Source: a virus. Taken from it: DNA of 42,012 nucleotides. Shown one piece after another: positions 3,984-41,557 of the stretch. Positions within the stretch are counted from its first letter, which is position 1; the number at the start of each line of letters is the position of its first letter. A program made the translations under genes and the position numbers. The notes under the pieces were generated by a model that ran no database searches, had not been told where the DNA came from, and saw nothing but the letters and a program-made list of their open reading frames with translations. The stretch lies in the IMG/VR virus record IMGVR_UViG_3300034062_002801, positions 1-42,012 of that record; one strand, 5' to 3'.

Positions 3984-4559
3984 ATGTCTACCAACCAACC
4001 CGCCGGCCGCATTCTGCTCAAGAACGTGCGCCTCGCCTTCCCCAACCTGTGGGAGCCCAACACTGTCAACGGCGAGGGCAAGCCCCGCTACAGCGCCTCG
4101 TTGCTGATGGGCCAAGACCACCCGCAAGTCGAAGAGATCAAGCGCAAGATCGAGGCGCTCGCCAAGGACAAATGGCGCGACAAGGCAGCCTCGATCCTGG
4201 CCGGCCTGTACAAGACCGACAAGGTCGCGCTGCACGACGGCGACACCAAGGCCCAGTACGACGGCTTTCCCGGCAACCTGTTCGTGGCCAGCGCCGCGCA
4301 GGAAAACGCAGCACCAACGGTCATCGATCGTGATCGCTCGCCCCTGAGCCAGCGCAGTGGCCGGCCCTACCCTGGGTGCTACGTCAACGCCAGCCTGGAG
4401 TTCTGGGCCCAGGACAACGGCTACGGCAAGCGCATCAACTGCACGCTGCGCGGCATCCAGTTCTACGCCGACGGCGACAGCTTCAGCGCCGGACGTCCTG
4501 CTGACTCCGACGAGTTCGACGACGTGAGCGCCGGTGCCGACGCCGAAGACTTCGCATAA
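3984..4559 (+). CDS. DUF2815 single-stranded DNA-binding protein
   Basis: This 191-aa protein resembles DUF2815, a T7 gp2.5-like SSB family. It begins with the usual RILLKNVRLAFPNLWEP and contains a conserved NASLEFWAQDNGYGKRINC stretch. It ends in an acidic tail (residues about 173-191, DEFDDVSAGADAEDFA), the part that in SSBs contacts polymerase and other replication proteins. AAAGGA lies upstream of the ATG. Its place between exonuclease and polymerase fits recombination and replication use. Confidence 0.85.
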   Translation: MSTNQPAGRILLKNVRLAFPNLWEPNTVNGEGKPRYSASLLMGQDHPQVEEIKRKIEALAKDKWRDKAASILAGLYKTDKVALHDGDTKAQYDGFPGNLFVASAAQENAAPTVIDRDRSPLSQRSGRPYPGCYVNASLEFWAQDNGYGKRINCTLRGIQFYADGDSFSAGRPADSDEFDDVSAGADAEDFA

Positions 4560-4564
4560 CGCGG

Positions 4565-4674
4565 GGGGCCCACTTCTCCCGCTGGGTTGACCGCCCGGCA
4601 ACAAGGCCAGATGGCTAATCAAGCTGCTCCCGTCCCCTGTTCGGCGGCTTGAGGTGCGTACACCGGTGGGCCCG
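4565..4674 (+). ncRNA. Candidate structured RNA before the polymerase gene
   Basis: This 187-nt gap has no supported ORF but contains nested stems. The outer helix is GGGCCCAC (4566-4573) with GTGGGCCC (4666-4673). Hairpin GCTGGG (4581-4586) pairs with CCCGGC (4594-4599), with one wobble. A small GCC-AGAT-GGC hairpin lies at 4606-4615. Hairpin 4619-4628 pairs with 4643-4652 over 10 bp with two wobbles. The layout is a multibranch junction followed by a terminator (4709-4733). It does not fit a tRNA. It could be an attenuator controlling polymerase or a separate small RNA. Confidence 0.5.
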
Positions 4675-4708
4675 TAACCATGGAGCCGGCAATGTGGCAA
4701 AGGTCTGA

Positions 4709-4733
4709 CACCCCGGAAAGACGGGGCCTTTTT
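4709..4733 (+). terminator. Terminator or attenuator upstream of the polymerase
   Basis: CCCCG (4711-4715), 6-nt loop, CGGGG (4722-4726), then CC and TTTTT (4729-4733). It follows the structured element and precedes the polymerase ATG by 13 nt. It would end or attenuate the early transcript here unless bypassed. Confidence 0.6.
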
Positions 4734-4746
4734 ACGAAAGCGTGCG

Positions 4747-6834
4747 ATGCCCATCCTCTGGTTTGACTGCGAAACGTACAGCGAATGCGACCTCAAGACC
4801 GCAGGCACGCACCGCTACGCCGAGCACCCCAGCACCGAGATCACCGTGGCCCAGTGGGCCGTCGACGACGCCGAGCCGGTGGTCGTTGACTGCACAGCGC
4901 AGCGCAAGCCACGCATGCCCCCCGACCTCCTGCAAGGCCTGCTGCTCAATCACAACATCACGATCGTGGCGCACAACAGCATGTTCGACCGCACCCTGCT
5001 GCGCCACTGCTGGGGCATCAACGTGCCCGTGGAGCGCTGGCAGGACACGATGATCAAGGCGATGAGCCACGGCCTGCCTGGAGGCCTCGACAAGATCGGG
5101 CAGATCGTTGGCCTCGACGCCGACCAGGCCAAGGACAAGCGCGGCCGGGATCTCATCCAACTGTTCTGCAAGCCGCGCCCCAAAAACTCTACGCTGCGCC
5201 GGGCCACGCGCGAGACGCACCCCAAGGAGTGGGCCGAGTTTCTCGAGTACAGTCGCCAGGACATCGTCGCCATGCGCGCGATCGACCAGCGTCTGCCGGT
5301 CTGGAACTACGGCACCGGCCATGCCGAGCTCGCGCTGTGGCACCTCGACCAGCGCATCAACGATCGCGGCGTGGCCGTCGACGTTGAGCTGGCCGAGGCC
5401 GCCATCGACGCGGTGGCGCGCGAGCAAAAGCGACTGAAGGCCGAGGTTCAGGAAGCCACCGACGGCCTGGTGCACAGCGCCAGCAAGCGCGACCAGCTGC
5501 TCGCCTTCATCTGCACCGAGTACGGCGTCGACCTGCCCGACATGAAGGCCGACACGCTGCGCCGCCGGGTTGAAGACCCCAACCTGCCCGAGGGCGTGCG
5601 CCTGCTGCTGGCGCTGCGCCTGGAGTCAACCAAGACCAGCACCGCCAAGTACAAGGCCCTGGTCAACGCGACCAGCGCCGACGGTCGCCTGCGCAACACG
5701 CTGCAGTTTGCCGGCGCGCAGCGCACCGCCCGCTGGGCCGGCCGCATCTTCCAGCCGCAAAACATGCCCAGGCCTGACATGAAGCAGGATCAGATCGACG
5801 AGGGCATCGACGCGCTGAAAGCAGGCTGCGCCGAACTGTTCTTCAGCAACACCATGCGCCTGACCGCCAACACCGTGCGCGGCTGCATCGTGGCGCCGCC
5901 CGGCAAGAAGCTGGTCATCGCCGACCTGTCCAACATCGAGGGCCGAGGCTTGGCCTTCCTGGCCGGCGAGCGCTGGAAGCTCAAGGCCTTTGCCGACTTC
6001 GACGCCGGCGTGGGCGAGGATCTTTACAAGGTGGCCTACGGTCGCAGCTTCAACATCGACCCCAAGGAAGCCACCGGCCAGAAGCGCCAGATCGGCAAGG
6101 TGATGGAGCTCGGTTTAGGGTACGAGGGCGGCGTCGCTGCGTTCCTGACTTTTGCTGCCGTGTATCAGATGGACCTCGAGGACCTGGCCAAAGCCGTGTG
6201 GGCCACCGCCAGCCACGAGGCGCTCGAGAACGCCCAGGGTATGTGGGGTTGGGCCAAGAAAAAGAAGCGCACGCTGGGCCTGACCATGGAGGTCTACGTC
6301 GCCTGCGAGGTGCTCAAGACCGCCTGGCGCGAGGCGCACGCCAACACCCGCGCGCTGTGGGCCGCCGCCGCGGAGGCCGTGCGCCTGGCCATCAAGAACC
6401 CGGGCGAGTCGTTCCCGATCGGCCAGCACCTGAAGGCGCGCCGCGATGGCGCCTGGCTGCGTCTGCGCCTGCCCTCGGGCCGCTACCTTTGCTACATCAA
6501 CCCCGACGTCGACGACGAGGGGCAGATCACCTACTTCGGCGTGAACCAGTACACCCGGCAATGGGGCCGCATCAAAACCTACGGCGGCAAGCTGGTGGAG
6601 AACGCGACGCAAGCCTTCGCCCGCGATGTACTGGCCTACAACATGCCCGCGATCGAGCAGGCCGGCTACGAGATCGTGCTCTCGGTGCACGACGAGCTGC
6701 TCACCGAAACGCCCGACGAGCCAGGCTACAACGTCGATCGGCTCGCCGGGATGATGGCCACCGCGCCCGCCTGGGCGCAGGGCATTCCGCTGGCTGCGGC
6801 CGGCTTTGAAACCACGCGGTATCGCAAGGATTAA
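4747..6834 (+). CDS. Family A DNA polymerase
   Basis: This 695-aa protein is the replicative polymerase. The N-terminus is a DnaQ-type 3'-5' exonuclease: D7 and E9 in WFDCETYSE, then AHNSMFDR, then YSRQDIVAM. Polymerase motif A is ADLSNIEGR (Asp about 393). Motif B is KRQIGKVMELGLGYEGG (about 446-462). Motif C is SVHDELL (HDE 648-650). There is no 5'-nuclease domain. The B motif has Leu-Gly-Leu-Gly-Tyr in place of the usual Phe-Gly-x-x-Tyr. The Shine-Dalgarno is weak (GAAAG). The primase-helicase it must work with lies in the opposite, leftward operon. Confidence 0.95.
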   Translation: MPILWFDCETYSECDLKTAGTHRYAEHPSTEITVAQWAVDDAEPVVVDCTAQRKPRMPPDLLQGLLLNHNITIVAHNSMFDRTLLRHCWGINVPVERWQDTMIKAMSHGLPGGLDKIGQIVGLDADQAKDKRGRDLIQLFCKPRPKNSTLRRATRETHPKEWAEFLEYSRQDIVAMRAIDQRLPVWNYGTGHAELALWHLDQRINDRGVAVDVELAEAAIDAVAREQKRLKAEVQEATDGLVHSASKRDQLLAFICTEYGVDLPDMKADTLRRRVEDPNLPEGVRLLLALRLESTKTSTAKYKALVNATSADGRLRNTLQFAGAQRTARWAGRIFQPQNMPRPDMKQDQIDEGIDALKAGCAELFFSNTMRLTANTVRGCIVAPPGKKLVIADLSNIEGRGLAFLAGERWKLKAFADFDAGVGEDLYKVAYGRSFNIDPKEATGQKRQIGKVMELGLGYEGGVAAFLTFAAVYQMDLEDLAKAVWATASHEALENAQGMWGWAKKKKRTLGLTMEVYVACEVLKTAWREAHANTRALWAAAAEAVRLAIKNPGESFPIGQHLKARRDGAWLRLRLPSGRYLCYINPDVDDEGQITYFGVNQYTRQWGRIKTYGGKLVENATQAFARDVLAYNMPAIEQAGYEIVLSVHDELLTETPDEPGYNVDRLAGMMATAPAWAQGIPLAAAGFETTRYRKD

Positions 6835-17208: not shown

Positions 17209-20200
17209 TCAGCGCTGCTTGCTCTCGGGGCTGGCGGTGCCGGTGATGACGCCGCGCGCCAGGTCGACGGGGCTGGTGGGCTCGATGTCGCCGCCCGCGA
17301 TGCCGGCGAGATACCCGATCGGGCGCTGCAAGCCGTAGATCGGCAGACCAGTGATCATGGTCGCAGCGGCTGACACATCGCGCACCGCTTTCTGCACGTT
17401 GCCGTCGTCGACGATCGCCTTGTAGACGCTCGAGGGCGCGCTTACGGTGGACTCGATCAGCGACACCGCCGGCGACAGGCTGAACTTGTCGTCGGCCGGG
17501 TTGTCGTTGAACCGGTTCACGACGAGCTGCGCGGCCTGGCCCACCAGCGGGATCTGCGCGGCCAGGCCCTTGAGCGTGCCCAGACCAAACACCGCGAGCA
17601 GCCAGTCGTCGATCCAGCCGTCCTTGTCTTCGTCCTCGGGCCCGCCCTTGAATGCTTGGGCGATCGCCTCGGCTACCCAGATCGGCACCAGCAGGCCGGC
17701 GAGCGCCACGTACAGGATCTTGCCGGCGCCCTTCTTGATGCCCATCTCGCCGGCGATCTGCTTGACCGCCGTGGCGTTGGTGTTGGCCATCATGTTGAAG
17801 TAGGACACGAACTGCGTGAACAGTCGCGCGTAGCCCGGGCCCGACTCGAACCGGCTGATGTCCTCGGGCAGGGTCGAGCCCTGCGTCTGGCGGATCACGC
17901 CGTCCGCGAAGCGCACCGCCTCTTTAACGTCCTGGCCCTGCTCGATCGCCTGGTTGTAGGCGGCGGTCCAGATGATCGGGCTCATGGTGTTGTCGACCGC
18001 GGCCTGCATAAAGTAGGCGTGCCGGTTGGTCCAGGCCTGGCCCCGTTGCAGCAGAGTCGGGTTGACCAGAATCTCTTCGATGGCGTCGTTCATGGCGCCG
18101 ACCTCGTTGAGCATCCGGTCCTTCATGTAGGGCGAGGCCTCGGCCACCTCGGTCTTCATGGCCTTGGGGTCGGCGATGAACTGCGCGGTGGCGCTCATCA
18201 TCAGCCCCGGCTTGACCTTGACGCCGGCCAGGCTGAAGCCCGTGATCTGCTGGAACGTGTTCGACAGGTTCGCGAACATGAGCGCCATGCCGGCGCGCGA
18301 GCGAGCTGCGCTCAAGAATCGACTCAGCTTGCGATCGCCCACCACCGGGGTCTCGACGACCTGCTTGGCGGCGCGGTTGAGCCAGGGGATCAGCATGCCC
18401 TCATAGGCGCCGGGATCGATGCGGTCGAGCGCGTAGCTCACGCGTTTATTGGTGAGCAGCCGGCGCACGTCGGTGACCGCGCCTTGCAGGTGCGAGAACA
18501 GCAGCACCTTGTCCATGTGCTGGCCAAGCGCGCGCAGGTCCAGCAGCAGCGGCTGGTTGTACTCGACGCGGGCCTTGGTGAACCCGCTGGGCGCGGCCGG
18601 GAAGGCGTAGGCCATCGACTCGTTTTCGCCCTCGGCGAGCTCGCGCAGCTTCGCATCCTTGACCAACCGCGAGTCGGTCTGCGCCGGCACGTAGCCGCCG
18701 CGGTAGGTGCCGAAGGGGGTGACCACCTCGTTGGCCGTGACCTCGGCAAAGTAGCGCCCGAACACCTTGCGGTGCGTCTCCTGGGCGAGGGGTTTCATCT
18801 CCTCGAGCAGGTCCCAGACGCCTTGGGCAAAGTCGTAGTGCGCCTGGTTGATTTTGCCCTCGCCGATCATGCGGGTGATGAACGCATCCCAGCGGCCGGT
18901 GTCGAGCGTACCGTCGGCGTTCTCGCTGGCCCAGCCCCGGCCCAGCAGGAGCTTGCGCTTGTTGCTGTCGTTGCCGGTGTGCAGGATCGCGTGCAGCAGC
19001 TCGGCCGTGCCTGAGTCGCGAGCGTTGCCGAAGGTGTAGCCGAGCTCGGGCGCCTCGATCGGGCCTGGCGGCAGCTGCGGTGCGATGGCCTGCAGCATCT
19101 CGGTGAACTTCTTGCGGTAGGCCACCCGGTCGGTGCGGTAGCGATCGGCGGCGTCTTTGACGGGCTGGAACACCAGGCGCAGGAACGGGCCGCCAAACGC
19201 GCCGTCCAGGCGCTCGGCCCACTGCTCGACCCGGCTCAGGATCGACTTAGCAAACTGCAGCTTGAGGCCCCGCTCCTCGCGGTCGGTGATGGCGCCCCGC
19301 TCGCCCGGGATCTCGGCCGGGATGCCGATCGTGTCCATGCGCGCCATGAGCTCGTCGGCGGCGTCCTCGATGTCCATGAGGTTGCCGTCGACTTCCATCT
19401 GGCGCGAGCGCTTGGCCAGCACCCACATGGCGCGCAGCTCGTCGGCCAGGCCCCGCAGCTCCTCCATCGTCATCTCGGGCAGGGGCTTGGCGTTCAACAT
19501 CGCGGTGTCGACGCTGGGCTTGAGCGCTGCGTACATGGCCGGGTCGTTGCGACTCACGGTTTCCATGTAGGCGATCGCGCTCTTCTCCAGGCGCGGCGCC
19601 ACGTCGTAGGCGGCGAGTATTGCGCGCATCGCGTTGACCACATCCGGGTCACGGCCGCGCTCGACGGTCTTCTCGTCGTTGCCCCGGGTCACGCGCTTGA
19701 AGAACTCGAGGATCTTGCGCACCTCGACCTGGGCGTCCTGCAGCGCCTTGGCGGCGTAGTTGTTCAGGAGCTGGTCGCGCTTGGCCTGCACGGCCTCCTC
19801 GCTCTTGCCTTCGGAGGTGAGCTGCTGCCAGCGCTTGCCGGCGCGGGCCTCGGCGGCGCGGTGCTGCCAGGCGGCGTTTTTCAGATCCTTGAGCCGGCGG
19901 CGCGCGGCCAGGTTGAGCGCAAACTGCTTGGCTGCCTCGACCACAGTGTTGACCGTAATCGGCCGGCCCCGCACGTCGGTGCGCCCGGTGTCTTGGCGCT
20001 GGTTCATCATCTCGGCCTGAGACTTGAGCTCGGTCGCAAGCGCCCGCGCGCGGGCCTCGTTGTGCACGGCCTCGTTGGCTGCCGCCTCGCGCGCCTCGGG
20101 CGTGGCGAGATCTCCATGGCGCTCGAGCATGCGCTGGTCGGTGATGCCCTCGACCACGGAGGCGATCGACTCGGCGTCGAGAATCGCGCGCACCAGCTGG

Positions 20201-23200
20201 TCGCCGGTCTCGTAGCCGAACATGTCGGCCACCATGTCGGGGTGCAGGCCTTCCTTGCCGGTCATCCCGCGCAGGCGCGTGAGGTCGGGGCGGCCCAGCA
20301 TGGTCTCGGGGTACATCTCGGCCAGCGCCTCGGTCGACAACCGAAAACCCTTCTCGGCCTTGATCAGGTCGCCGGTGGCGGGGTCGGTGGTCTCGCCCTT
20401 CTTGAGCCAGCTCATGGCCCGGTAGACGGGCTGCTGCTCGACCTCGGCGCGCACCTCGGCCTCGACCTCCTTGCGCAGGGTCTTGGCCTGCTTCTCGAGC
20501 TCCTTGAGCGTTTTGCCGCGGGCGCGCACCACCCACTTCAGGTCGCGCAGCGAGCGCGCCTGCAGCGCCTCGATCGCCTCGTTGGTGGCCTCGAAGTCGG
20601 GCAGCATGCCGGCGGCCTCCTCGGCCTGGGCGATCTGCTCGTCGGTGGCCATCAGGCGACCAAACACCTGGCGCACCTCGTCGTTGACCTTGAGGTTGCG
20701 CGCACGCATGAACTCGGTGAGCGATTTGTAGACGTTCACCAGCCAGGAGCGGAAGCGCCGGAACAGCGGCTGCAGCTCGGGGCTCGGGGCCTTGCCTTCG
20801 AACAGGTACTGCTCAAAGGACTCGGCCCAGCGCTCGTGGTATGGGCGTTTTTGGTCGAGGGTGTAGTTGTTCCAGGTCGCGAGATCGGGCACGCCGAACC
20901 ACTTCAGCGTGGCGGCCATGTCGTCTTTGATCTGCTGCGGGGTGTTGGCCTGGCTCGCGAGGTCGGCCAGCACCTCGAGGAAAAAGTGCCCGGACTCGTG
21001 CAGGAAAGTGGAAAGGTCGGCGTTTTCGTTCAGCGTGACGAGCAGCTGCTCGGGGCTGAACGTGCCGCGGGGGCCCTGCTCTAGGACGCCTTCTGGCCCA
21101 GCACTTCCTGTGCGATCGCCAGGTCCTCGTTCTCCTCGTTGAACTCCTGCTGCGCCGACAGCGGCCTGAAGCTCGGCGTCGACGGCTGCGCTGGCGGCGG
21201 CGATGTCGGCGTCGGGGATGCCTTGGCTGCGGGCGAGCTTGGCTGCTGCGTTTGCGTAGTCGGGAGCTTCGTCGTCTTCGTAGCCATCGGTTGCCTCATC
21301 GGATGTTTTTGCAGCATCGTACAGGCGCTTCTCAGGATACCAGAGCAGCGCTTGCAGGTCTGACATTGTAAGCGCTGGATAGGTTTTCTGGAGTTCGCCC
21401 AGCACCTGGGCAAACACCTTGCGAATGTTGCCGCGCTCAGGGGGCCCCGACGGAGCTTCTTTTTGTCCGTCGAGATATTTTGTTAAAGCGTTGCCCGCCT
21501 TGCGCAGCTCGTCGCCAACCGAGACGCGCTCCTGGCCTTTTTTGGGCTCGCCCAGCAGCTCGGTAAAGCGCGCCTGAAGTGTCTCATCGGCGACACCGAT
21601 GACGGCCATGGCTTTGCGGTTGGCTGGCTTTTGCGAAGCCTTCCAGATCGCCTGGCCGACCGCGTCGACGTCGCCGACCGTGAGCTTGCGCTTGATGATC
21701 GCCTCGAACGCTTTTTTGTCGGCAGGCGTGAGCGCCTGGATCAGGCCCTTGAGCAGCGTGCGCTTGGCCTTGACCTGCTCGGGGTTGGCCTCGACCAGGG
21801 TGCCGGTCCAGCGGCCCCAGGTGCGCATCAGCCAGCGGTCCATGGTGAGCTGCTCGAAGCGCCCGTACAGGTTCATGAAAAACCCGTTGCCGATCTTCGG
21901 ACCCAACGCTGCGGCACCGTACACCAGGGTGGTCTTGTTCTCGCCGGTGACCTTGTTGCCGGTGAACTTCTCAACCTCGCCAGCGGGCTGCAACGTGGTC
22001 ATGAACTTCTCGACCACCTCGAAGCCGTGCTTTTCGATCAGCGTGTTGTAAAGCCCCAGCGAGCGGTTGATCGCTTCGGCGGCGGTGCCGATGCCGACGT
22101 CGGTGGGCATCTGGCCGGTGGTCTTGTAGCCCTGGTAAACCTTCTCAGCGAGCTCAAAGTTCTTGTCGACCTTGAGCCCGTTGGAGGTCACGGCCATGGC
22201 CCACACAAACGCGAACTTGGCCTGCGGGTCGGTGGCGATCTCGGGGTGGATCAGCGACACCAGGCGCAGGGCCTTGGTCACTTTCTCGTTGTACCAGCCG
22301 ACCGCGTTGGCGTTGGTGCGCAGCGCAGTCAGGCCATCGGCCAAGGCGATGCGCACCAGGTACTGCTCGGTGCCTTGCGTGAACTCGTCGAGCTTGACCT
22401 TGGCGGCTTTGGCGGCAGCGACTACGCGCGCTTGGAGGGAGAGCTTGAAGTCGCGGTTGGTGGGGAACGACTGGGTGGCGGCGAACTCAAACGCCGACTC
22501 GACGTTGGCGGTGGCGTCGACCTCGGCCGGCACGGTCTTGCCCTTTTCCTGGACACCGCGCTGCTCGAGGGCGTTGGCGTCATTGGTTGGGGTGTAGGTG
22601 TATGTTCTTTCCCCTTGCACCAACCGGTCGCCCATCTGCAACGAAACTTGAGACGGCTGCAGCCAGTCGATGTTTTTCCAAAAGTTGTCACCACCTTCAG
22701 TCACACCGACAATCGACAACGGCTTTCCCGTGGCGTCGGCGTAGCGTTTTAATGCTTCTACGGCTTGCCGTCCTCGCCCTGTCCCTCGCACCGGTTTAGT
22801 TAGATCAGTTGGATCTTTTGCGTAGACGTTGATGACGTAAATGCCGTCTGGGTCGTCACGGACAGACATTTGCACTTTGCTGTCTGTGAACTCCAGTGTG
22901 AAGCTGGTGCCGGTTCCGAAAGCATCATCCTGAGAAATATCGGACACCGTTGCGCCGGTAATGCTTGCCACTTGATCAGTCATTGAACCGGCGTTCAGCA
23001 CCTGCCCGCCCGGCCCCTTTGCAGCTACCTTGAGGCTGTAGCGCTGGAAGAGCTCCTGCGGCGTCAGCCCGACGCGCGCGGCCATGGTGCTGAAGAAGTT
23101 GGCCTGCAGCGTGGCATAGGCGTCGTTCACGTCGGGCGTGAACCGCCCGGTGGTGCTGAGCTGCTCGAGGATCGCGGTCTTTACCTGCTCGCTGCTTTGC

Positions 23201-24768
23201 TGCCAGGCCTGGGTGTCGGCGGCTTGCTGCAGCACGCGGTCGGCTTCCTGGCGCAGGAACTGCTCGGTGAGCTGGGCCTCGACGCGCGAGGGCGCGTTGG
23301 GGCGCATGCGGGCGTTGTCGTTGAGGATCTGCTCGAGCTCGGTGCCCGGCGCCACGGTGAGCACGTCGGCCATCGGCACAGCGACCGTGCTGTTGGCCTC
23401 GAGCGCGCCCGGGATCTGCTCGCGCACCGACTCGGGCAGCTGCGCCAGCAGGTTGGGTGCGAGCTGGTTCAGCACCTCGGCGTCGACGTAAACCTCTTTC
23501 TTGGCGCCGTCGTTGGCGTCGACCACGCGCTGCACGTGGGCGCGGAACTGCTCGGGGCTGCGCTGGCGCAGCATCGAGGTCGCGGCCAGTTGCATCTGCT
23601 GCTGCAGCAGGTCCTGGTCGAACTGCAGGCTGCGATCGCTCGCGGCCTCGATGACCTTGTTGATGCCCTTGATCGTGGAGGTCTGCACGCCCACGCCGAC
23701 CAAGGTGGCGATGAACGTCTGGTAGGCGGCCTCTGGGCGCTCCTGAATAAACTCGGCCAGGGTCTTGTCCGGGTTCAGGTTCATCCACTCGTTGAAGTCT
23801 TGCGTCAGCGTGGTGAGCTGCTCGGTCCAGCCCTCGCTCAAAGTTTGGCGGCCGAGCAGTTTTAGCAAACCGGTATTGGCGGCCAGATCCCCGAACAGCT
23901 TGGCGGCGGGGATGCGCTCAAACACGTACTCAAACGTGCCCTGCGGAATCGCGTAGACGGCCGCCTGCAGCTGGTTGCGGCCTTGGTCGCGTGCCTCGTT
24001 GAACGCGGCCGAGCCCACGCCCGCCGAGAGGATGCCGGCCACGGTTGATGCGGCTTGATTGGCGGTGGCGTAGAGCCCGCGGTAGAGGCCCACCGGCAAG
24101 ACCGCAAGGCTGGTGCCGGCCGACTGCAAGCCTGAGCGCACGGCCTGGCCGGTGCTCGACTCAGCCTGGAACCCGTACTCGTCCATCACGCCCTGCAAGC
24201 GCTTGGCGGTGCCGCGCGCGGCCTGCGCCCCGCTCTGCCAGCCGATCAGGTCGTTGACGGTGCCGGCAACGTCGAAAGCCATCTTGCCCACGCCCACCGT
24301 GCCGCCGAGCGCCACGGACTTGGCGGCGCCGGCGAGATCGCTCGGCAGACCGCCTTTGCCGTCGGCGCCCATGACGTAGCGCACGCCGCGGCCGACCGAG
24401 CGCTCGAGGTTCTTGAGCGTGTCGAGGTCGTCGATCGAAGTGGTCGTGAACGTCGGGTCGACCAGCTGCCGGTAGAGCACCGGCGACTCTTGCGCCAGCT
24501 GGATCAGGTCAATGGCACGGGCGCGCTCTTTGAGGCGCAGCGCCTCGAGGTTGCGCTCGACCACCGGCAGCGGCACGCCCGAGGTTTGCGACAGGCGCAG
24601 TCGCTCGGCAGCGATGTCCGGGTCGCCCTGCAGCGCCGACTCGATGACGGTGCGGGCGCGGTTTTGTTGCAGGTTCTGCTGCTCACGCGCCAGCGGCAAA
24701 TAGGGGTTGTCCTGAACGTCGGGCGATTGCGGTGCGCGCTCCTGCGCCAGACGCAAGTAGTCGGTCAT
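17209..24768 (-). CDS. Giant polyvalent internal virion protein
   Basis: 2519 aa, 18% of the genome. Residues 1-580 are largely helical with a Gly/Ala-rich part near 220-290. Residues about 590-725 look like a GNAT-type acyltransferase fold (VRGTGRGRQAVEALKRYA), encoded by a stretch with distinctly lower GC. Residues 765-1155 form a helical module like those in large polyvalent proteins. Residues 1250-1345 hold a zincin metallopeptidase site, LHESGHFFLEV (H1257, E1258, H1261). Long helical regions follow, and near the C-terminus is a hydrophobic segment (ILYVALAGLLVPIWVAEAIA). By position after the core proteins it is probably ejected with the DNA, like T7 gp16. Start overlaps the next gene upstream by 4 nt. 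Confidence 0.8.
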   Translation of the reverse strand: MTDYLRLAQERAPQSPDVQDNPYLPLAREQQNLQQNRARTVIESALQGDPDIAAERLRLSQTSGVPLPVVERNLEALRLKERARAIDLIQLAQESPVLYRQLVDPTFTTTSIDDLDTLKNLERSVGRGVRYVMGADGKGGLPSDLAGAAKSVALGGTVGVGKMAFDVAGTVNDLIGWQSGAQAARGTAKRLQGVMDEYGFQAESSTGQAVRSGLQSAGTSLAVLPVGLYRGLYATANQAASTVAGILSAGVGSAAFNEARDQGRNQLQAAVYAIPQGTFEYVFERIPAAKLFGDLAANTGLLKLLGRQTLSEGWTEQLTTLTQDFNEWMNLNPDKTLAEFIQERPEAAYQTFIATLVGVGVQTSTIKGINKVIEAASDRSLQFDQDLLQQQMQLAATSMLRQRSPEQFRAHVQRVVDANDGAKKEVYVDAEVLNQLAPNLLAQLPESVREQIPGALEANSTVAVPMADVLTVAPGTELEQILNDNARMRPNAPSRVEAQLTEQFLRQEADRVLQQAADTQAWQQSSEQVKTAILEQLSTTGRFTPDVNDAYATLQANFFSTMAARVGLTPQELFQRYSLKVAAKGPGGQVLNAGSMTDQVASITGATVSDISQDDAFGTGTSFTLEFTDSKVQMSVRDDPDGIYVINVYAKDPTDLTKPVRGTGRGRQAVEALKRYADATGKPLSIVGVTEGGDNFWKNIDWLQPSQVSLQMGDRLVQGERTYTYTPTNDANALEQRGVQEKGKTVPAEVDATANVESAFEFAATQSFPTNRDFKLSLQARVVAAAKAAKVKLDEFTQGTEQYLVRIALADGLTALRTNANAVGWYNEKVTKALRLVSLIHPEIATDPQAKFAFVWAMAVTSNGLKVDKNFELAEKVYQGYKTTGQMPTDVGIGTAAEAINRSLGLYNTLIEKHGFEVVEKFMTTLQPAGEVEKFTGNKVTGENKTTLVYGAAALGPKIGNGFFMNLYGRFEQLTMDRWLMRTWGRWTGTLVEANPEQVKAKRTLLKGLIQALTPADKKAFEAIIKRKLTVGDVDAVGQAIWKASQKPANRKAMAVIGVADETLQARFTELLGEPKKGQERVSVGDELRKAGNALTKYLDGQKEAPSGPPERGNIRKVFAQVLGELQKTYPALTMSDLQALLWYPEKRLYDAAKTSDEATDGYEDDEAPDYANAAAKLARSQGIPDADIAAASAAVDAELQAAVGAAGVQRGERGPGDRTGSAGPEGVLEQGPRGTFSPEQLLVTLNENADLSTFLHESGHFFLEVLADLASQANTPQQIKDDMAATLKWFGVPDLATWNNYTLDQKRPYHERWAESFEQYLFEGKAPSPELQPLFRRFRSWLVNVYKSLTEFMRARNLKVNDEVRQVFGRLMATDEQIAQAEEAAGMLPDFEATNEAIEALQARSLRDLKWVVRARGKTLKELEKQAKTLRKEVEAEVRAEVEQQPVYRAMSWLKKGETTDPATGDLIKAEKGFRLSTEALAEMYPETMLGRPDLTRLRGMTGKEGLHPDMVADMFGYETGDQLVRAILDAESIASVVEGITDQRMLERHGDLATPEAREAAANEAVHNEARARALATELKSQAEMMNQRQDTGRTDVRGRPITVNTVVEAAKQFALNLAARRRLKDLKNAAWQHRAAEARAGKRWQQLTSEGKSEEAVQAKRDQLLNNYAAKALQDAQVEVRKILEFFKRVTRGNDEKTVERGRDPDVVNAMRAILAAYDVAPRLEKSAIAYMETVSRNDPAMYAALKPSVDTAMLNAKPLPEMTMEELRGLADELRAMWVLAKRSRQMEVDGNLMDIEDAADELMARMDTIGIPAEIPGERGAITDREERGLKLQFAKSILSRVEQWAERLDGAFGGPFLRLVFQPVKDAADRYRTDRVAYRKKFTEMLQAIAPQLPPGPIEAPELGYTFGNARDSGTAELLHAILHTGNDSNKRKLLLGRGWASENADGTLDTGRWDAFITRMIGEGKINQAHYDFAQGVWDLLEEMKPLAQETHRKVFGRYFAEVTANEVVTPFGTYRGGYVPAQTDSRLVKDAKLRELAEGENESMAYAFPAAPSGFTKARVEYNQPLLLDLRALGQHMDKVLLFSHLQGAVTDVRRLLTNKRVSYALDRIDPGAYEGMLIPWLNRAAKQVVETPVVGDRKLSRFLSAARSRAGMALMFANLSNTFQQITGFSLAGVKVKPGLMMSATAQFIADPKAMKTEVAEASPYMKDRMLNEVGAMNDAIEEILVNPTLLQRGQAWTNRHAYFMQAAVDNTMSPIIWTAAYNQAIEQGQDVKEAVRFADGVIRQTQGSTLPEDISRFESGPGYARLFTQFVSYFNMMANTNATAVKQIAGEMGIKKGAGKILYVALAGLLVPIWVAEAIAQAFKGGPEDEDKDGWIDDWLLAVFGLGTLKGLAAQIPLVGQAAQLVVNRFNDNPADDKFSLSPAVSLIESTVSAPSSVYKAIVDDGNVQKAVRDVSAAATMITGLPIYGLQRPIGYLAGIAGGDIEPTSPVDLARGVITGTASPESKQR

Positions 24769-26843
24769 TTAGCGGTGCCTTTCGCGGCGGCGTTGGGGCT
24801 GAACGTGACGCGGTCTTTGCTGGCGCGATCGATGATTGCTTCGATCTGCGCGTCGGTCAGACCCAGGGTTTTGAGGTCGCTGGAAATATCACGCACGCCA
24901 ACTTCCAGTTGCTCTTTGAGGGCGGTGGGCAGTCGCGTGTCGTTCAAGAGCCGCTTGACCACGTTCTCGAGCTGTCGTGTGAGCGTCGGAACATCTGCCG
25001 GCTGCGCGGGCGCTGGCGCCGCGGCGGGCCGGGTCTGAACCGTGCTTTCCGCGGCTTCGCGCATGATTCGCTGCCGGTCGTTTTCGAGATCGGTTCGCGC
25101 CGCGGGCGCCGGGGCAGGCGCCGGTGCGCGCGCGGCCGGGGCGGGTGCCCTTGCAGGCGCTGGTGCGGCTGCGGGTGCCGGCGCTGCTGCCGGCGCAGGG
25201 GCAGCGGCCGGCGCCGGTGCAGACGGCCGATTGCGCTGGGCAGACAAGTACATCTCGACCACGGACTGCTCGGTGGGCACCTGGCCGGTGGCCTGCAGCG
25301 CCTGGATGATCTGGCGGCGATCGGTGGCCGGCACCGAGGACACCTTGTAGTTCTTGCCGTTGACGCGCACGTAGGCGTTGCGCATCTCGTCGGGCGTGAC
25401 CAGGGCCGTGGGCTTTTGCGGGTCGGTGCCCCACTCGTCGACGTACACCTTGTCCATCACCACGCGGTCGACGATCGCCTGCTTCTCGTCGGCGGTCAGA
25501 TCCTTGCCGCCCTTGTTGGCCGAGGCCAGGCGTACCTGGCGGTCGATCTCGAGCGTCAGTCGCGACGCGGCGTCCGGGTCTTTTTTCTTGTCGATGCCCA
25601 GGCCGACCAGCGCGTTGTTGATGCGCGCCTCGTCGGTCAGCATGCTGTCTTGCTTGACGCTGCCGGGCTTGGCCGCGGCGCCCTGGATGTCGAGCAGCGA
25701 CTCCATCTGCGCCGGCGCGATCCGTTCGGTGTAAGCGCGCAGGTCGACCTTTTCCCCGCGGGCGAGTTTTTCGCGCACGTCGATGTAGGTGCGCATGTCG
25801 GTCTTGACCGGAGTGCCGGCGGCCAGGCGCTCGGAGCGGGTGCGCTGCGACTCTTGCAGCTGGGCGCGCTCGCGCCCCGACATTTGCGAGAGCACCGCCT
25901 CGGGGATCTTTTGCCCCTGGGCAAACAGTTGCCAGGCCTGGTCGGAGGCGCGGGCCTCGACCTCTTGCTCGGCCTGCTTGACCAGGGCGTGGTTGTTGCG
26001 GATCTGGTTGAGCGCCTTCTCGCGGCGCTGCGGGTCGGTGATTTTGGCGGCGTCGGCCAGCTGCTCGGCGAGCGGCTTGGTCGCCACGCTTGCAGCGAAC
26101 TGGGTCGCGAACTGGTTGTCGAGCTCGCCTTTTAGCACCTGCTCAACGCGCGCCTGGTTCTGGAACCCGACCTCGGCCTTGTTGGCGTCGTAGTAGGTTT
26201 GCGCGGCCTGGGCGTTGACCTCGGCGAGCTTGGTGATTTGCGCCAGGTGCATGGCGGACAGGTTCTTGCCGGCCTCGGCCTGCACCTGCTCGGTGGTCCA
26301 GCCCTTGCGCGCGCCGAGCACGGCGGCCTTCTCGCGGATCTGCTGCGCGGTGCTCGCGACGTTGCCCGAGGTGACCCCGAACTGGATCGTGGTGTTGACG
26401 TCGGCGGCGTAGGTCTCGTCGGCGTGGCGCTCTTTCTCGGCGTTGACGAACGTGCCCACCGAGTTGATGGCCTGCAGCTGCTTAGAGCTCAGGCTCCTTG
26501 AGGCCAGCGCCTTGGCGCGCGGGTCCAGGTCCTTGCCGTAGGTTTCGGCGGCGGTTTTCCACCACTCGTCGGCCGCCGCAGTGTAGCCGTCGACGTTCTG
26601 GCCGCGGTACTTTTGCCGAGCCTGGCCGTCCCACTTCAGCCACTCGCTGGTAATTTTGGCTTCAGCGTCGAACGCCTTGGCCTGCGCATCGCGCAGGTCG
26701 ATGCGGTCGGCGGCCTCGGCCACTTGCATGAGGCCCTGCCCCAGCGCACGCGCGCCCGAGCTGACGTCGGGCGTGTTTTGAAAGGCGGGCTGCAGCGGTT
26801 GCGTGCGGACCTGGCGGTCGCCGTAAACAGGAACCTGGGGCAT
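24765..26843 (-). CDS. Internal virion core protein with Ala-Pro hinge
   Basis: 692 aa, mostly alpha-helical with heptad-like charged stretches. It starts MPQVPVYGDRQVRTQPLQPA, which is typical of phage core or ejection proteins. A nearly pure Ala/Pro tract of about 45 residues (about 539-587) separates the main body from a helical C-terminal part (LTRQLENVVKRLLNDTRLP). In T7 order it stands where gp15 does. Function is inferred from order and composition. Confidence 0.75.
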   Translation of the reverse strand: MPQVPVYGDRQVRTQPLQPAFQNTPDVSSGARALGQGLMQVAEAADRIDLRDAQAKAFDAEAKITSEWLKWDGQARQKYRGQNVDGYTAAADEWWKTAAETYGKDLDPRAKALASRSLSSKQLQAINSVGTFVNAEKERHADETYAADVNTTIQFGVTSGNVASTAQQIREKAAVLGARKGWTTEQVQAEAGKNLSAMHLAQITKLAEVNAQAAQTYYDANKAEVGFQNQARVEQVLKGELDNQFATQFAASVATKPLAEQLADAAKITDPQRREKALNQIRNNHALVKQAEQEVEARASDQAWQLFAQGQKIPEAVLSQMSGRERAQLQESQRTRSERLAAGTPVKTDMRTYIDVREKLARGEKVDLRAYTERIAPAQMESLLDIQGAAAKPGSVKQDSMLTDEARINNALVGLGIDKKKDPDAASRLTLEIDRQVRLASANKGGKDLTADEKQAIVDRVVMDKVYVDEWGTDPQKPTALVTPDEMRNAYVRVNGKNYKVSSVPATDRRQIIQALQATGQVPTEQSVVEMYLSAQRNRPSAPAPAAAPAPAAAPAPAAAPAPARAPAPAARAPAPAPAPAARTDLENDRQRIMREAAESTVQTRPAAAPAPAQPADVPTLTRQLENVVKRLLNDTRLPTALKEQLEVGVRDISSDLKTLGLTDAQIEAIIDRASKDRVTFSPNAAAKGTAK

Positions 26844-39001: not shown

Positions 39002-39290
39002 GCAACGCAACAACACCCCGATCCTCTGCAACACTGCAACGTAGCCTATAGGCTTACGTTGCGTTGCGTTGCAGCTTGAGGATCTTCGCAACACGAGTGC
39101 AACGTCGTGTTGCAGTCCGTGTTGCACGTGTTGCACGCGCCAATTTCACAAGCAAAAACAACAACTTAGATGCTCCGTGCAATTTTCTGCACGTGTTGCA
39201 CTTGGCGTTGCACTCGTCTTTTCGTTTAGCAGTTGCTGTGACGTTGCAACGACCCCAAAAAACCCCTCGTGTTGCACTTGAACGCGCAAC
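39002..39290. repeat. Iteron-like GTTGC/GCAAC array, candidate origin
   Basis: In the 350-bp gene-free stretch 38982-39331 I count 19 copies of GTTGC (11) or GCAAC (8) within 289 bp, against less than one expected by chance. Several share a longer form CGTGTTGCAC (near 39106, 39118, 39127, 39192, 39268). There is a perfect CGTTGCAACG palindrome (39242-39251) and an AGCCTATAGGCT palindrome (39043-39054). A TAGCAGTTGCTG dyad (39227-39238) resembles the early operators. The adjacent primase-helicase supports an origin; a multi-site regulator target is the alternative. Confidence 0.65.
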
Positions 39291-39331
39291 AAACCGCACG
39301 TTCAGTGCTAAAGGGGCAAAGTTTTGCACGT

Positions 39332-39529
39332 TCACGCGGCACCACCGCCGTCGGTGTCGTGCTCGGGAAAATCAAAAAACTCGTGCAGGTCCGACCAGAT
39401 CGCCTCGTCGATGCAGTCCTTCACAAAGCCTGGCGCAGGCTCGTCGTCGTGCTTGTGCGCCCGATTCCAGCCCCGCTCGATGCCTGAGCTGATGCACTGC
39501 TCGAGCAGCGGTATGACCTTGGGTTTCAT
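39332..39529 (-). CDS. Small acidic protein, unknown
   Basis: 65 aa: MKPKVIPLLEQCISSGIERG, then WNRAHKHDDEP and EAIWSDLHEFFDFPEHD. Similar short proteins with a GxxRAHKH-type motif are common in phages of this kind. GAAAGGA precedes the ATG, 12 bp after the primase-helicase stop. Function unknown. Confidence 0.7.
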   Translation of the reverse strand: MKPKVIPLLEQCISSGIERGWNRAHKHDDEPAPGFVKDCIDEAIWSDLHEFFDFPEHDTDGGGAA

Positions 39530-39541
39530 GTTCGCGTCCTT

Positions 39542-41530
39542 TCAACACACCGATATGCAGCCGTCATCGCCCAGCCAGTAGGGCGCCTCATCGCCTTGCG
39601 TCAGCGCCTCCAGTGCCCGCCTGGCCCGTTGCTTGCGCGAGTCGCGCTTGCCATCGGCCGGCGGCTCCATGCGCTTGACGGCCTCGACCAGCACCGGACC
39701 CACCTCGATGCCCTCGGTCTGCGCCTGGGCCATCTCCTGGATCACCTCGTTGACGACCTTCTCGACCGGGCCGAGCTTCCTGGCCGGGCCTGCGCCCACC
39801 ACCGGCATCTGCGCCTCAATCACCACGCAGCTGGTGATGGGCTCGAGATCCTCGTCGACGTCGACCTGGATCACCTCGAGGTCAAAGCCCCACTCCAGGC
39901 CGTCCTCGCCGTCCTTGCTCTTGGTCAGGCGCAAGAAGCGCCCCGTCGTCTCGCGGCAGACCTCAATCTCGGCATCGGCCGCGGCGCGCAGGCCCGACCA
40001 GCCCCTGGCGCCCTTGGTCGCGTCCTTGCCGCTGTGGTGCACCAGCAGCACCATGGCGCCGGTGACCTCGTGGATGCGCTTGCAGTAGCCCAGCGCCTTG
40101 CCCACGTCCTCGCCGGCGTTCTCATTCGCGCCGGGCGTGGTCTGAGCAAAGGTGTCGATCACGATCAGGTCGGCGCCCCCGCTGGCACGGATGCCCTTGG
40201 CCACGTCGACCGCGTCCTGCTTCTCGAGCAGGTTGGGCGCGGCGTTGAGCACCGTCATCGGCACTGTCGAAAGATCGACACCGTTGTGCTTGGCGTAGGC
40301 GGCCAGGCGCTTGCGAAAACCGTCGGCGCCCTCGGCCGCGATGTAGGCGACGCGCCCCTGGCGGGTTCTCTTGCCGCGCCAGTCGACACCGCGGGCGATC
40401 GCCATGCCCATGTCGAGCACCGCAAAGGACTTGCCCGAGCCGCTGGCCCCGTAGACCACGCCCAGGCTGGCCTTGGGCAGCACGCCCTTGATGATCCAGG
40501 GCAGCGCCTTGGTGCTGCTGAAGGTGTGCACCGGCTCGAACGTGAACCGCTGGGGCTTGTCGGTGGCCTCCATTTCCTGGAGGCCATCCTCGACCAGCTC
40601 CTCGAACTCCTCGGCACTGGCCGGGCCGTTTAAGTTGATGCGCGCGCCGTGCTCGTTGGCGAGCTTGACCAGGCTGCGCCCGGTGACCTGGGCCCCGCCG
40701 CCCTTGCCAAAGCTGCGCCAGCGCTCCTCGTTGTACTCGCGGCTGGTGTACTTGGGGCTGCTGGTGCTCCACTCCTCCCAGAGCTCGAAGCCCTCGCCGC
40801 GGGTCTCGCAGTGGATGGCCATGCCGACCATGAGCCAGTCGTCGTAGTGCAGGTCCGTGGGCAGCGCCTTGAGACACTCCTCGAGCTGCGCCGTGCTCAA
40901 GCCCGCAGGCTCACCCGATGAGCCTGTCTCGAGCGGCTCCTGGCTGCGCGCAAAGCGCTCAGCGTGCAGCGCGAGCACCTCCTCAGGCAGCGGCGCCACG
41001 GCGTCGGTGTTGCCCAGCAGCTCCGTGATGTCGAGCGTGTTACCGGTGAACGTGACAAAGCCGCGCGTCGAAAAGCACTCCATGCCGAACTCGCCGCCGC
41101 GGATCGCTTTGCCGTTGCCCAAGTCGCCCTTGAAAAACACCCGGATGCCCTGGCCGGAGGGCGAGAACTCGGCGTAGGTCTCGCCGAGCAGCGCCTCAAC
41201 CTGGGGGTGGATCTTGCCGTCGGTGATGCAGTTGTCGAAGTCGAGCGCGCAGATCCCAAATTGGGAAAGCGCGGCAAAGCCGACGCCGTCATAGCCCCGG
41301 CGCGCGGCGGCGACCTTGGCGGCGTCGAAGGTCACGAGGTTGGCAATGTCTTTAGGTCCGCCTTGCTCACCGTGACGTTTGCCGCCGTTGGCGTAGTAGG
41401 GAATTTTGCGGGGCTTGCTGGCGCCGGGCACGGCCTCGAAGCGCCAGATCACCCAGGCGGGCAGATCACGAATGGCGGCGGGGGCCTCGACGTCTCGGAG
41501 GTGCGGGGTGATGCGGTGCACGTTACTCAT
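39542..41530 (-). CDS. Primase-helicase (PrimPol, PriCT, RepA-like ATPase)
   Basis: 662 aa from the ATG at 41530 with GGGGGG upstream; a GTG two codons earlier is possible. Residues 20-195 look like a PrimPol domain (GVGFAALSQFGICALDFDNC; FSPSGQGIRVFFKG). Residues 210-305 resemble a PriCT-2 linker (LEECLKALPTDLHYDDWLMV). Residues 320-560 are a RecA-fold helicase with Walker A GASGSGKS (K367), Walker B LIVIDTFAQ and LLVHHSGKDATKGARGWSGL. It should prime and unwind for the family A polymerase encoded on the opposite strand. Confidence 0.88.
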   Translation of the reverse strand: MSNVHRITPHLRDVEAPAAIRDLPAWVIWRFEAVPGASKPRKIPYYANGGKRHGEQGGPKDIANLVTFDAAKVAAARRGYDGVGFAALSQFGICALDFDNCITDGKIHPQVEALLGETYAEFSPSGQGIRVFFKGDLGNGKAIRGGEFGMECFSTRGFVTFTGNTLDITELLGNTDAVAPLPEEVLALHAERFARSQEPLETGSSGEPAGLSTAQLEECLKALPTDLHYDDWLMVGMAIHCETRGEGFELWEEWSTSSPKYTSREYNEERWRSFGKGGGAQVTGRSLVKLANEHGARINLNGPASAEEFEELVEDGLQEMEATDKPQRFTFEPVHTFSSTKALPWIIKGVLPKASLGVVYGASGSGKSFAVLDMGMAIARGVDWRGKRTRQGRVAYIAAEGADGFRKRLAAYAKHNGVDLSTVPMTVLNAAPNLLEKQDAVDVAKGIRASGGADLIVIDTFAQTTPGANENAGEDVGKALGYCKRIHEVTGAMVLLVHHSGKDATKGARGWSGLRAAADAEIEVCRETTGRFLRLTKSKDGEDGLEWGFDLEVIQVDVDEDLEPITSCVVIEAQMPVVGAGPARKLGPVEKVVNEVIQEMAQAQTEGIEVGPVLVEAVKRMEPPADGKRDSRKQRARRALEALTQGDEAPYWLGDDGCISVC

Positions 41531-41557
41531 GTACACCCCCCGAAGTGATAGGGGTCA

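Follow-up and report, generated by a model that had tools for sequence, protein, structure and literature searches.

What is a dense array of GTTGC pentamers doing in the gap between a primase-helicase gene and the gene for a small helix-turn-helix (HTH) protein, and which protein reads it? We take up this question for a viral DNA stretch of 42,012 nucleotides, referred to here as the window, in which the initial annotation had proposed an iteron origin near the primase-helicase, with the small HTH protein as a possible binder of the repeats. Comparison with relatives upholds the first part of that proposal, through the conserved position of the array and its covariation with a protein domain, and goes against the second: the array is very probably the replication origin of the phage, and comparative sequence evidence points to the C-terminal winged helix (wH) domain of the adjoining primase-helicase as its reader.

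A dense pentamer array between two minus-strand genes

The 19 GTTGC/GCAAC pentamers originally counted on both strands of the 289 bp at 39002-39290 are indeed there, and their number lies beyond anything in shuffled sequence. Dinucleotide shuffles of the same 289 bp contain 3.1 of them on average and 11 at most (2000 shuffles), whichever 5-mer is commonest in the shuffled stretch averages 6.3 copies and reaches at most 10 (1000 shuffles), and no other 289-bp stretch of the 42-kb window has more than four. Over the whole window the pentamer shows no enrichment (127 observed, 143 expected). A longer form of the repeat had also been described; this is CGTGTTGCAC, present in exactly four copies whose pentamers lie at 39121, 39130, 39195 and 39271. 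Both neighbouring genes of the earlier description are real open reading frames (ORFs), and the placement of the array in non-coding DNA holds not only in the window but likewise in relatives. Beyond the HTH gene, on its far side from the array, are terminase genes.

Read in the sense of the helicase gene, the elements follow in this order: a distal set of seven pentamers, an AT-richer stretch, block 1, the block 2 hairpin, a GGGG and, beyond it, two last pentamers at 39011-39002 (Table 1). From its composition, the AT-richer stretch is a possible melting region. The cumulative GC skew is uninformative on the origin: it has its maximum at about 36-39 kb, its sign is the reverse of that usual in bacteria, and its effect is confounded with that of gene direction.

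Table 1. Features of the array and its surroundings, in window coordinates
Feature	Position	Strand	Basis or remark
Small HTH protein, 77 aa	38748..38981	-	By comparison, not the iteron reader
Iteron array, 19 GTTGC pentamers, candidate replication origin	39002..39290	both strands	Count; position kept in 81 non-redundant relatives
GGGG directly 3' of hairpin	39016..39019	-	Direct reading; frequent in relatives
Block 2 hairpin, five pentamers in inverted arms, outer stem GATCCTC/GAGGATC	39020..39084	-	DNA fold; relatives share the plan
Hairpin tip CCTATAGG	39045..39052		CCTATAGG/CCTTTAGG type kept across repeat classes
Block 1, five pentamers in inverted sets	39088..39134		Window sequence; relatives with the same plan
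AT-richer stretch (43% GC) between block 1 and distal pentamers	39131..39190		Composition
Second palindromic motif, GTGCAATTTTCTGCAC	39177..39192		Motif search
Distal set, seven pentamers	39195..39290		Extension absent from most relatives
Second palindromic motif, GGCAAAGTTTTGCAC	39315..39329		Motif search
65-aa ORF between helicase gene and array	39332..39529	-	No family match (Pfam, PHROGs)
PrimPol / PriCT_2 / RepA-type helicase / C-terminal wH protein, 664 aa, proposed initiator	39542..41536	-	Pfam, PHROGs, AlphaFold, Foldseek
C-terminal wH domain, residues 590-664, proposed iteron reader	39545..39769	-	Model; covariation
Recognition helix alpha3, residues 634-646	39599..39637	-	Model; 636-637, with 631 and 633 just before, track the repeat unit

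The primase-helicase and its C-terminal domain

The array faces the 3' end of the primase-helicase gene across the small ORF of Table 1. The product of this gene carries PriCT_2 and AAA_25 domains (Pfam). In Foldseek comparisons of the AlphaFold model of this protein (mean pLDDT 82.5), the N-terminus matches the NrS-1 PrimPol and the helicase core, of RecA fold, matches RSF1010 RepA (1g8y, 1nlf, 1olo). In a model of the C-terminal part, the last 75 residues form three helices, the third of recognition type, and a short terminal strand pair, with pLDDT mostly 88-97. We note that Foldseek gave no significant fold match in the PDB for this wH model, and the label "winged helix" therefore draws on the shape of the model and on how PMC5862659 describes the family. 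That account of the PrimPol-PV1 families suggests that the C-terminal WH of PrimPol-RepA proteins recognises origins, and gives for PrimQH and other families the order primase, PriCT, helicase, WH that is also seen here (PMC5862659). Among open-licence full texts we found no paper naming the sites of the C-terminal WH in PrimPol-RepA proteins.

Arrays in relatives

When viral contigs and bacterial genomes were scanned with the helicase profile, 183 loci matched, from which near-duplicates were then removed. In 81 non-redundant relatives the 700 bp 3' of the helicase gene contain a significant short-repeat array, and nothing comparable is found on the 5' side of the gene in the same relatives; the comparison of repeats in related genomes that the initial annotation had advised thus reveals an array whose position is conserved, and the lack of conservation which that annotation named as speaking against an origin is not what is seen. 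The repeat unit falls under 28 labels at the 6-mer level (27 once ATGTTG is placed in the GTTGC family), the main classes among the 81 being GTTGC (34), GGTGC (11) and CTTC types (10), and the array class shifts at least 40 times on the helicase-core tree.

Among 98 new non-redundant loci, described below, 31 have no array 3' of the gene. One clade (L117/L218, which is Caulobacter phage RW, L143-L151, L160, L258, L265 and L272) lacks an array beside the gene; its wH motifs include RRQS and RRQN. The RW helicase is 43% identical to that of the window over the whole protein, and the same scan found no array in the non-coding DNA of RW; dense repeats at about 6.7-7.2 kb of RW were rejected as an array, lying as they do inside an annotated pentapeptide-repeat gene. 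Given this clade, RW included, not every member of the protein family comes with an array.

The repeat unit tracks the winged helix

Array similarity was compared with protein identity, domain by domain, by Mantel tests over the 81 loci. The wH correlates with the repeat unit at 0.52, and still at 0.41 after helicase-core identity is removed; once the wH is accounted for, the core has nothing to contribute (-0.04). Nearest neighbours share arrays (similarity >0.4) in 58% of cases when judged by the wH, as against 38% by the helicase core, 33% by the primase domain and 17% for random pairs. Because this covariation is strong, we infer that the wH binds the array.

With helicase identity removed, the best single columns are 636, 631, 637, 626 and 633, all at the beginning of the predicted recognition helix or immediately ahead of it. 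By residue rules framed on the 81 loci after the data had been viewed, training loci with QH at 636-637 carry GGTGC in 11/11 cases, H637 accompanies GGTGC in 11/11 and a residue other than H accompanies GTTGC in 34/34; the H637 split between GGTGC and GTTGC agrees in all five independent pairs, and the wider GTTGC rule in about 10 of 11, none being opposed (p ~0.002).

The rules were then fixed before new loci were fetched, and these came to 98 non-redundant loci, 67 of them with arrays by an automatic criterion. Here the QH rule predicted GGTGC in 5/5 cases and the CTTC rule held in 6/6. The GTTGC rule as literally written held in 17/36, a figure in which it overlaps the CTTC rule: 11 of the misses show DQRK.N or a close variant of it and belong with the CTTC class, and three more (L222, L241 and L283) are GTTGC arrays of 10, 13 and 10 pentamers under a shifted 6-mer label. 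After the overlap and the shifted labels are resolved the rule holds in 20/25, and the five remaining failures comprise two loci that resemble coding repeats (L254, L299) and three that carry GGAACA (L455, L460, L461).

Natural chimeras lead to the same domain. For instance, L036 and L037 have helicase cores 99% identical, primase domains 98% identical and fully identical HTH proteins, and differ in the last 80 residues (69% identity) and in their repeats, GGTGCA versus GCAACA. In L090 and L096 the helicase cores are identical, the HTH proteins 98.6% identical and the last 80 residues 39% identical, with repeats CGTTGC versus CAAGGG; in this pair the primase domains are likewise divergent (52%). 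L130 and L131 share 98.7% identity over 549 residues and 42% at the end (CGTTGC versus CCACAC), and L103 and L109, with identical HTH proteins, have CGTTGC versus GAGTAC together with a changed wH. In those pairs none of the HTH protein, helicase core and primase domain can by itself set the specificity, and the chimeras, taken with the covariation, point indirectly to the C-terminal domain as what determines that of the iterons.

What the array might do other than initiate replication

The same covariation would arise if the wH bound the array for copy control, incompatibility or partition and not for initiation, and the crr locus of phage P4 is a comparison for such a role; the window array, with its distal set of seven, is moreover longer than usual. 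We nevertheless consider this reading unlikely, since the window holds no second array to serve as the origin, the placement of the array immediately 3' of the helicase gene agrees with that of known origins (PMC7581432), and the record, which may be incomplete, yielded neither a ParA nor a ParB family.

Alternatively, the array might be an operator or immunity array, stoperator-like, bound by the small HTH protein, whose gene adjoins it, or by a CI/Cro-type repressor, for which a CI-like gene exists at 246-929. We regard this as very improbable. The suggestion that the HTH protein binds the pentamers does not survive comparison: HTH proteins 98.6-100% identical lie beside wholly different repeats (L036/L037, L090/L096, L103/L109), those just 42-55% identical adjoin the same repeat, and the repeat follows the wH of the helicase. 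In L029 the HTH gene is 1.2 kb off and the array remains with the helicase. The pentamer also lacks the enrichment elsewhere in the genome that dispersed operator sites would bring, and the HTH protein has a better candidate site of its own.

This candidate is a second palindromic motif (GTGCA...TGCAC), of the GTGCAAA-n-TTTGCAC type. Within the window it is confined to the intergenic stretch of the array, and in relatives the 700 bp upstream of the HTH gene contain it at 0.29 per kb, about 90 times its density elsewhere (0.003 per kb); the strict motif is present in only 16/91 loci. The small HTH protein may bind this motif, which is a better candidate for its site than the pentamers.

It is harder still to credit the repeats as template start sites recognised by the PrimPol domain in the style of NrS-1. 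The N-terminal domain does match the NrS-1 PrimPol, whose priming depends on an 8-nt sequence (PMC7102993), yet primase domains 98-99% identical occur with different repeats (L036/L037, L130/L131), and the primase domain is a worse predictor of the array than the wH.

A hairpin with variable arms and a recurrent tip

The local palindromes remarked on from the outset take definite form in block 2. The minus strand from 39084 to 39020 (65 bp) folds as a single hairpin of -22.5 kcal/mol as DNA (z = -5.0), and none of 200 shuffles folds as well. As a transcription terminator of the helicase gene, with the repeats having no other role, this strong hairpin 3' of the gene makes a scarcely believable case, for no T-run follows it in the window and the repeats reach far beyond it and covary with a protein domain.

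By tip patterns picked after the sequences had been viewed, a CCTTTAGG/CCTATAGG-type tip lies between inverted iterons in 58/81 arrays, regardless of the repeat unit. The arm sequences vary widely among relatives (GCTTC/GAAGC, GATCC/GGATC, GATGCC/GGCATC, GGCGCC/GGCGCC). With the iterons masked, self-complementarity of the outer stem is 4.49, as compared to 3.79 with arms swapped between loci (20 swaps; sd 0.10, maximum 4.09). Arms that vary and yet keep their pairing fit selection for pairing and not for a fixed site. We speculate that the GGGG next to the hairpin is a priming or melting element.

A proposed route to initiation

Taking the covariation, the position of the array and the hairpin together, replication most likely starts at the array. 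In the mechanism we propose, the wH domains of one or two helicase hexamers would dock on the inverted pentamers of blocks 1 and 2; a docked hexamer would thereby be loaded and might melt the origin, perhaps with extrusion of the hairpin. As the helicase unwinds, the fused PrimPol would lay the first primer, speculatively at the hairpin tip or the neighbouring GGGG, after which the phage DNA polymerase (4747-6834) and ssDNA-binding protein (3984-4559), whose genes are present, would presumably take over. The wH end and the array most likely act as one specificity cassette, exchanged jointly in evolution. We lean, if only slightly, towards the full form of this model: a one-protein initiator combining a RepA-type helicase with a PrimPol, whose wH reads the pentamers by a short residue code, with the matched cassette repeatedly swapped and the hairpin with its CCTATAGG/CCTTTAGG tip serving as a common melting or priming element.

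If so, the role suggested for the WH of PrimPol-RepA proteins would gain a concrete DNA target and a rule testable at the level of single residues. Initiator specificity in these phages would appear to shift repeatedly, a repeat set and the protein end that matches it being replaced together (the repeat class changes at least 40 times on the helicase-core tree), and this bears on the origin compatibility of co-infecting phages and on locating origins in unannotated viral contigs.

Relation to known replication systems

A close parallel in function is with the staphylococcal self-loading initiator helicases SaPI Rep and SCCmec Cch2, in which iterons directly 3' of the helicase gene are read by the helicase C-terminal domain; those of Cch2 are 5 nt long and are bound by the isolated C-terminal domain (PMC7581432). 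The window array is also 3' of its putative initiator helicase gene. However, the cores of SaPI Rep and Cch2 are of the D5/Primase_Cterm or DUF927 type, whereas that of the window is AAA_25/RepA-type with a fused PrimPol, and the window system would therefore work like SaPI Rep without being a member of that group. Their plan is one of two iteron sets flanking an AT-rich region; the 43% GC stretch that separates block 1 from the distal set in the window might correspond to that region, but most relatives have only the hairpin between inverted iteron sets.

The IncQ plasmid RSF1010, with RepA, RepB' and RepC, shares the RepA-type hexameric helicase core, a primase and iterons, and its primer is made at a stem-loop (PMC4234260). 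There the functions are spread over three proteins, with the iterons read by a separate RepC, whereas the single chain of the window appears to hold all three functions. ORF904 of pRN1 joins a PrimPol, a helicase and a C-terminal winged helix, and has a stem-loop origin of ~100 nt 3' of its gene; the same authors proposed a similar stem-loop for phage BIP-1 (PMC4234260). The window likewise has a conserved stem-loop 3' of its replication gene, but pRN1 has an SF3 helicase and no iterons, in contrast to the RepA-type core and iterons found here. With NrS-1, which has an 8-nt recognition sequence in two genomic copies and an SF3 helicase C-terminus (PMC7102993), the window protein has its N-terminal primase-polymerase fold in common; the window repeat differs in apparently not being read by the primase, as near-identical primase domains accompany different repeats.

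Bordetella phage BPP-1 (Rauchvirus) resembles the window in gene order (primase, gap, the HTH homologue bbp27, small terminase) and in having AACGAGGCA units arranged as inverted sets that flank an AT-rich stretch, and differs in the type of primase (a 2565-bp gene) and in the repeats. In its sister phage BIP-1 the primase is of the D5/SF3 type (PMC4234260). Between the BPP-1 primase gene and bbp27, at about 26,590-26,730 of the BPP-1 record (about 4590-4730 of locus L217), lie TTTGCCTCG / CGAGGCAAA units, and on sequence grounds we put this stretch forward as a candidate origin in a well-studied phage. Four further relatives with an adjacent HTH gene (L028, L048, L019 and L021) have helicases of other types, VapE- or D5-like with C-termini judged by eye, and other arrays; L048 has four TGTCACCCT units either side of an AT-rich stretch.

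Other features of the window

The lack of an integrase pointed out by the initial annotation stands, in that no tyrosine or serine integrase family was found in the record; since the record may be incomplete, this says little on lifestyle, including the plasmid-like maintenance that the initial annotation had considered, as is also true of the missing Par families. The protein encoded at 246-929 on the plus strand resembles phage transcriptional repressors (phrog_12107, E 9e-13), which hints at a temperate life. Among the virion genes, positions 17209-24768 of the minus strand form one ORF of 2519 aa.
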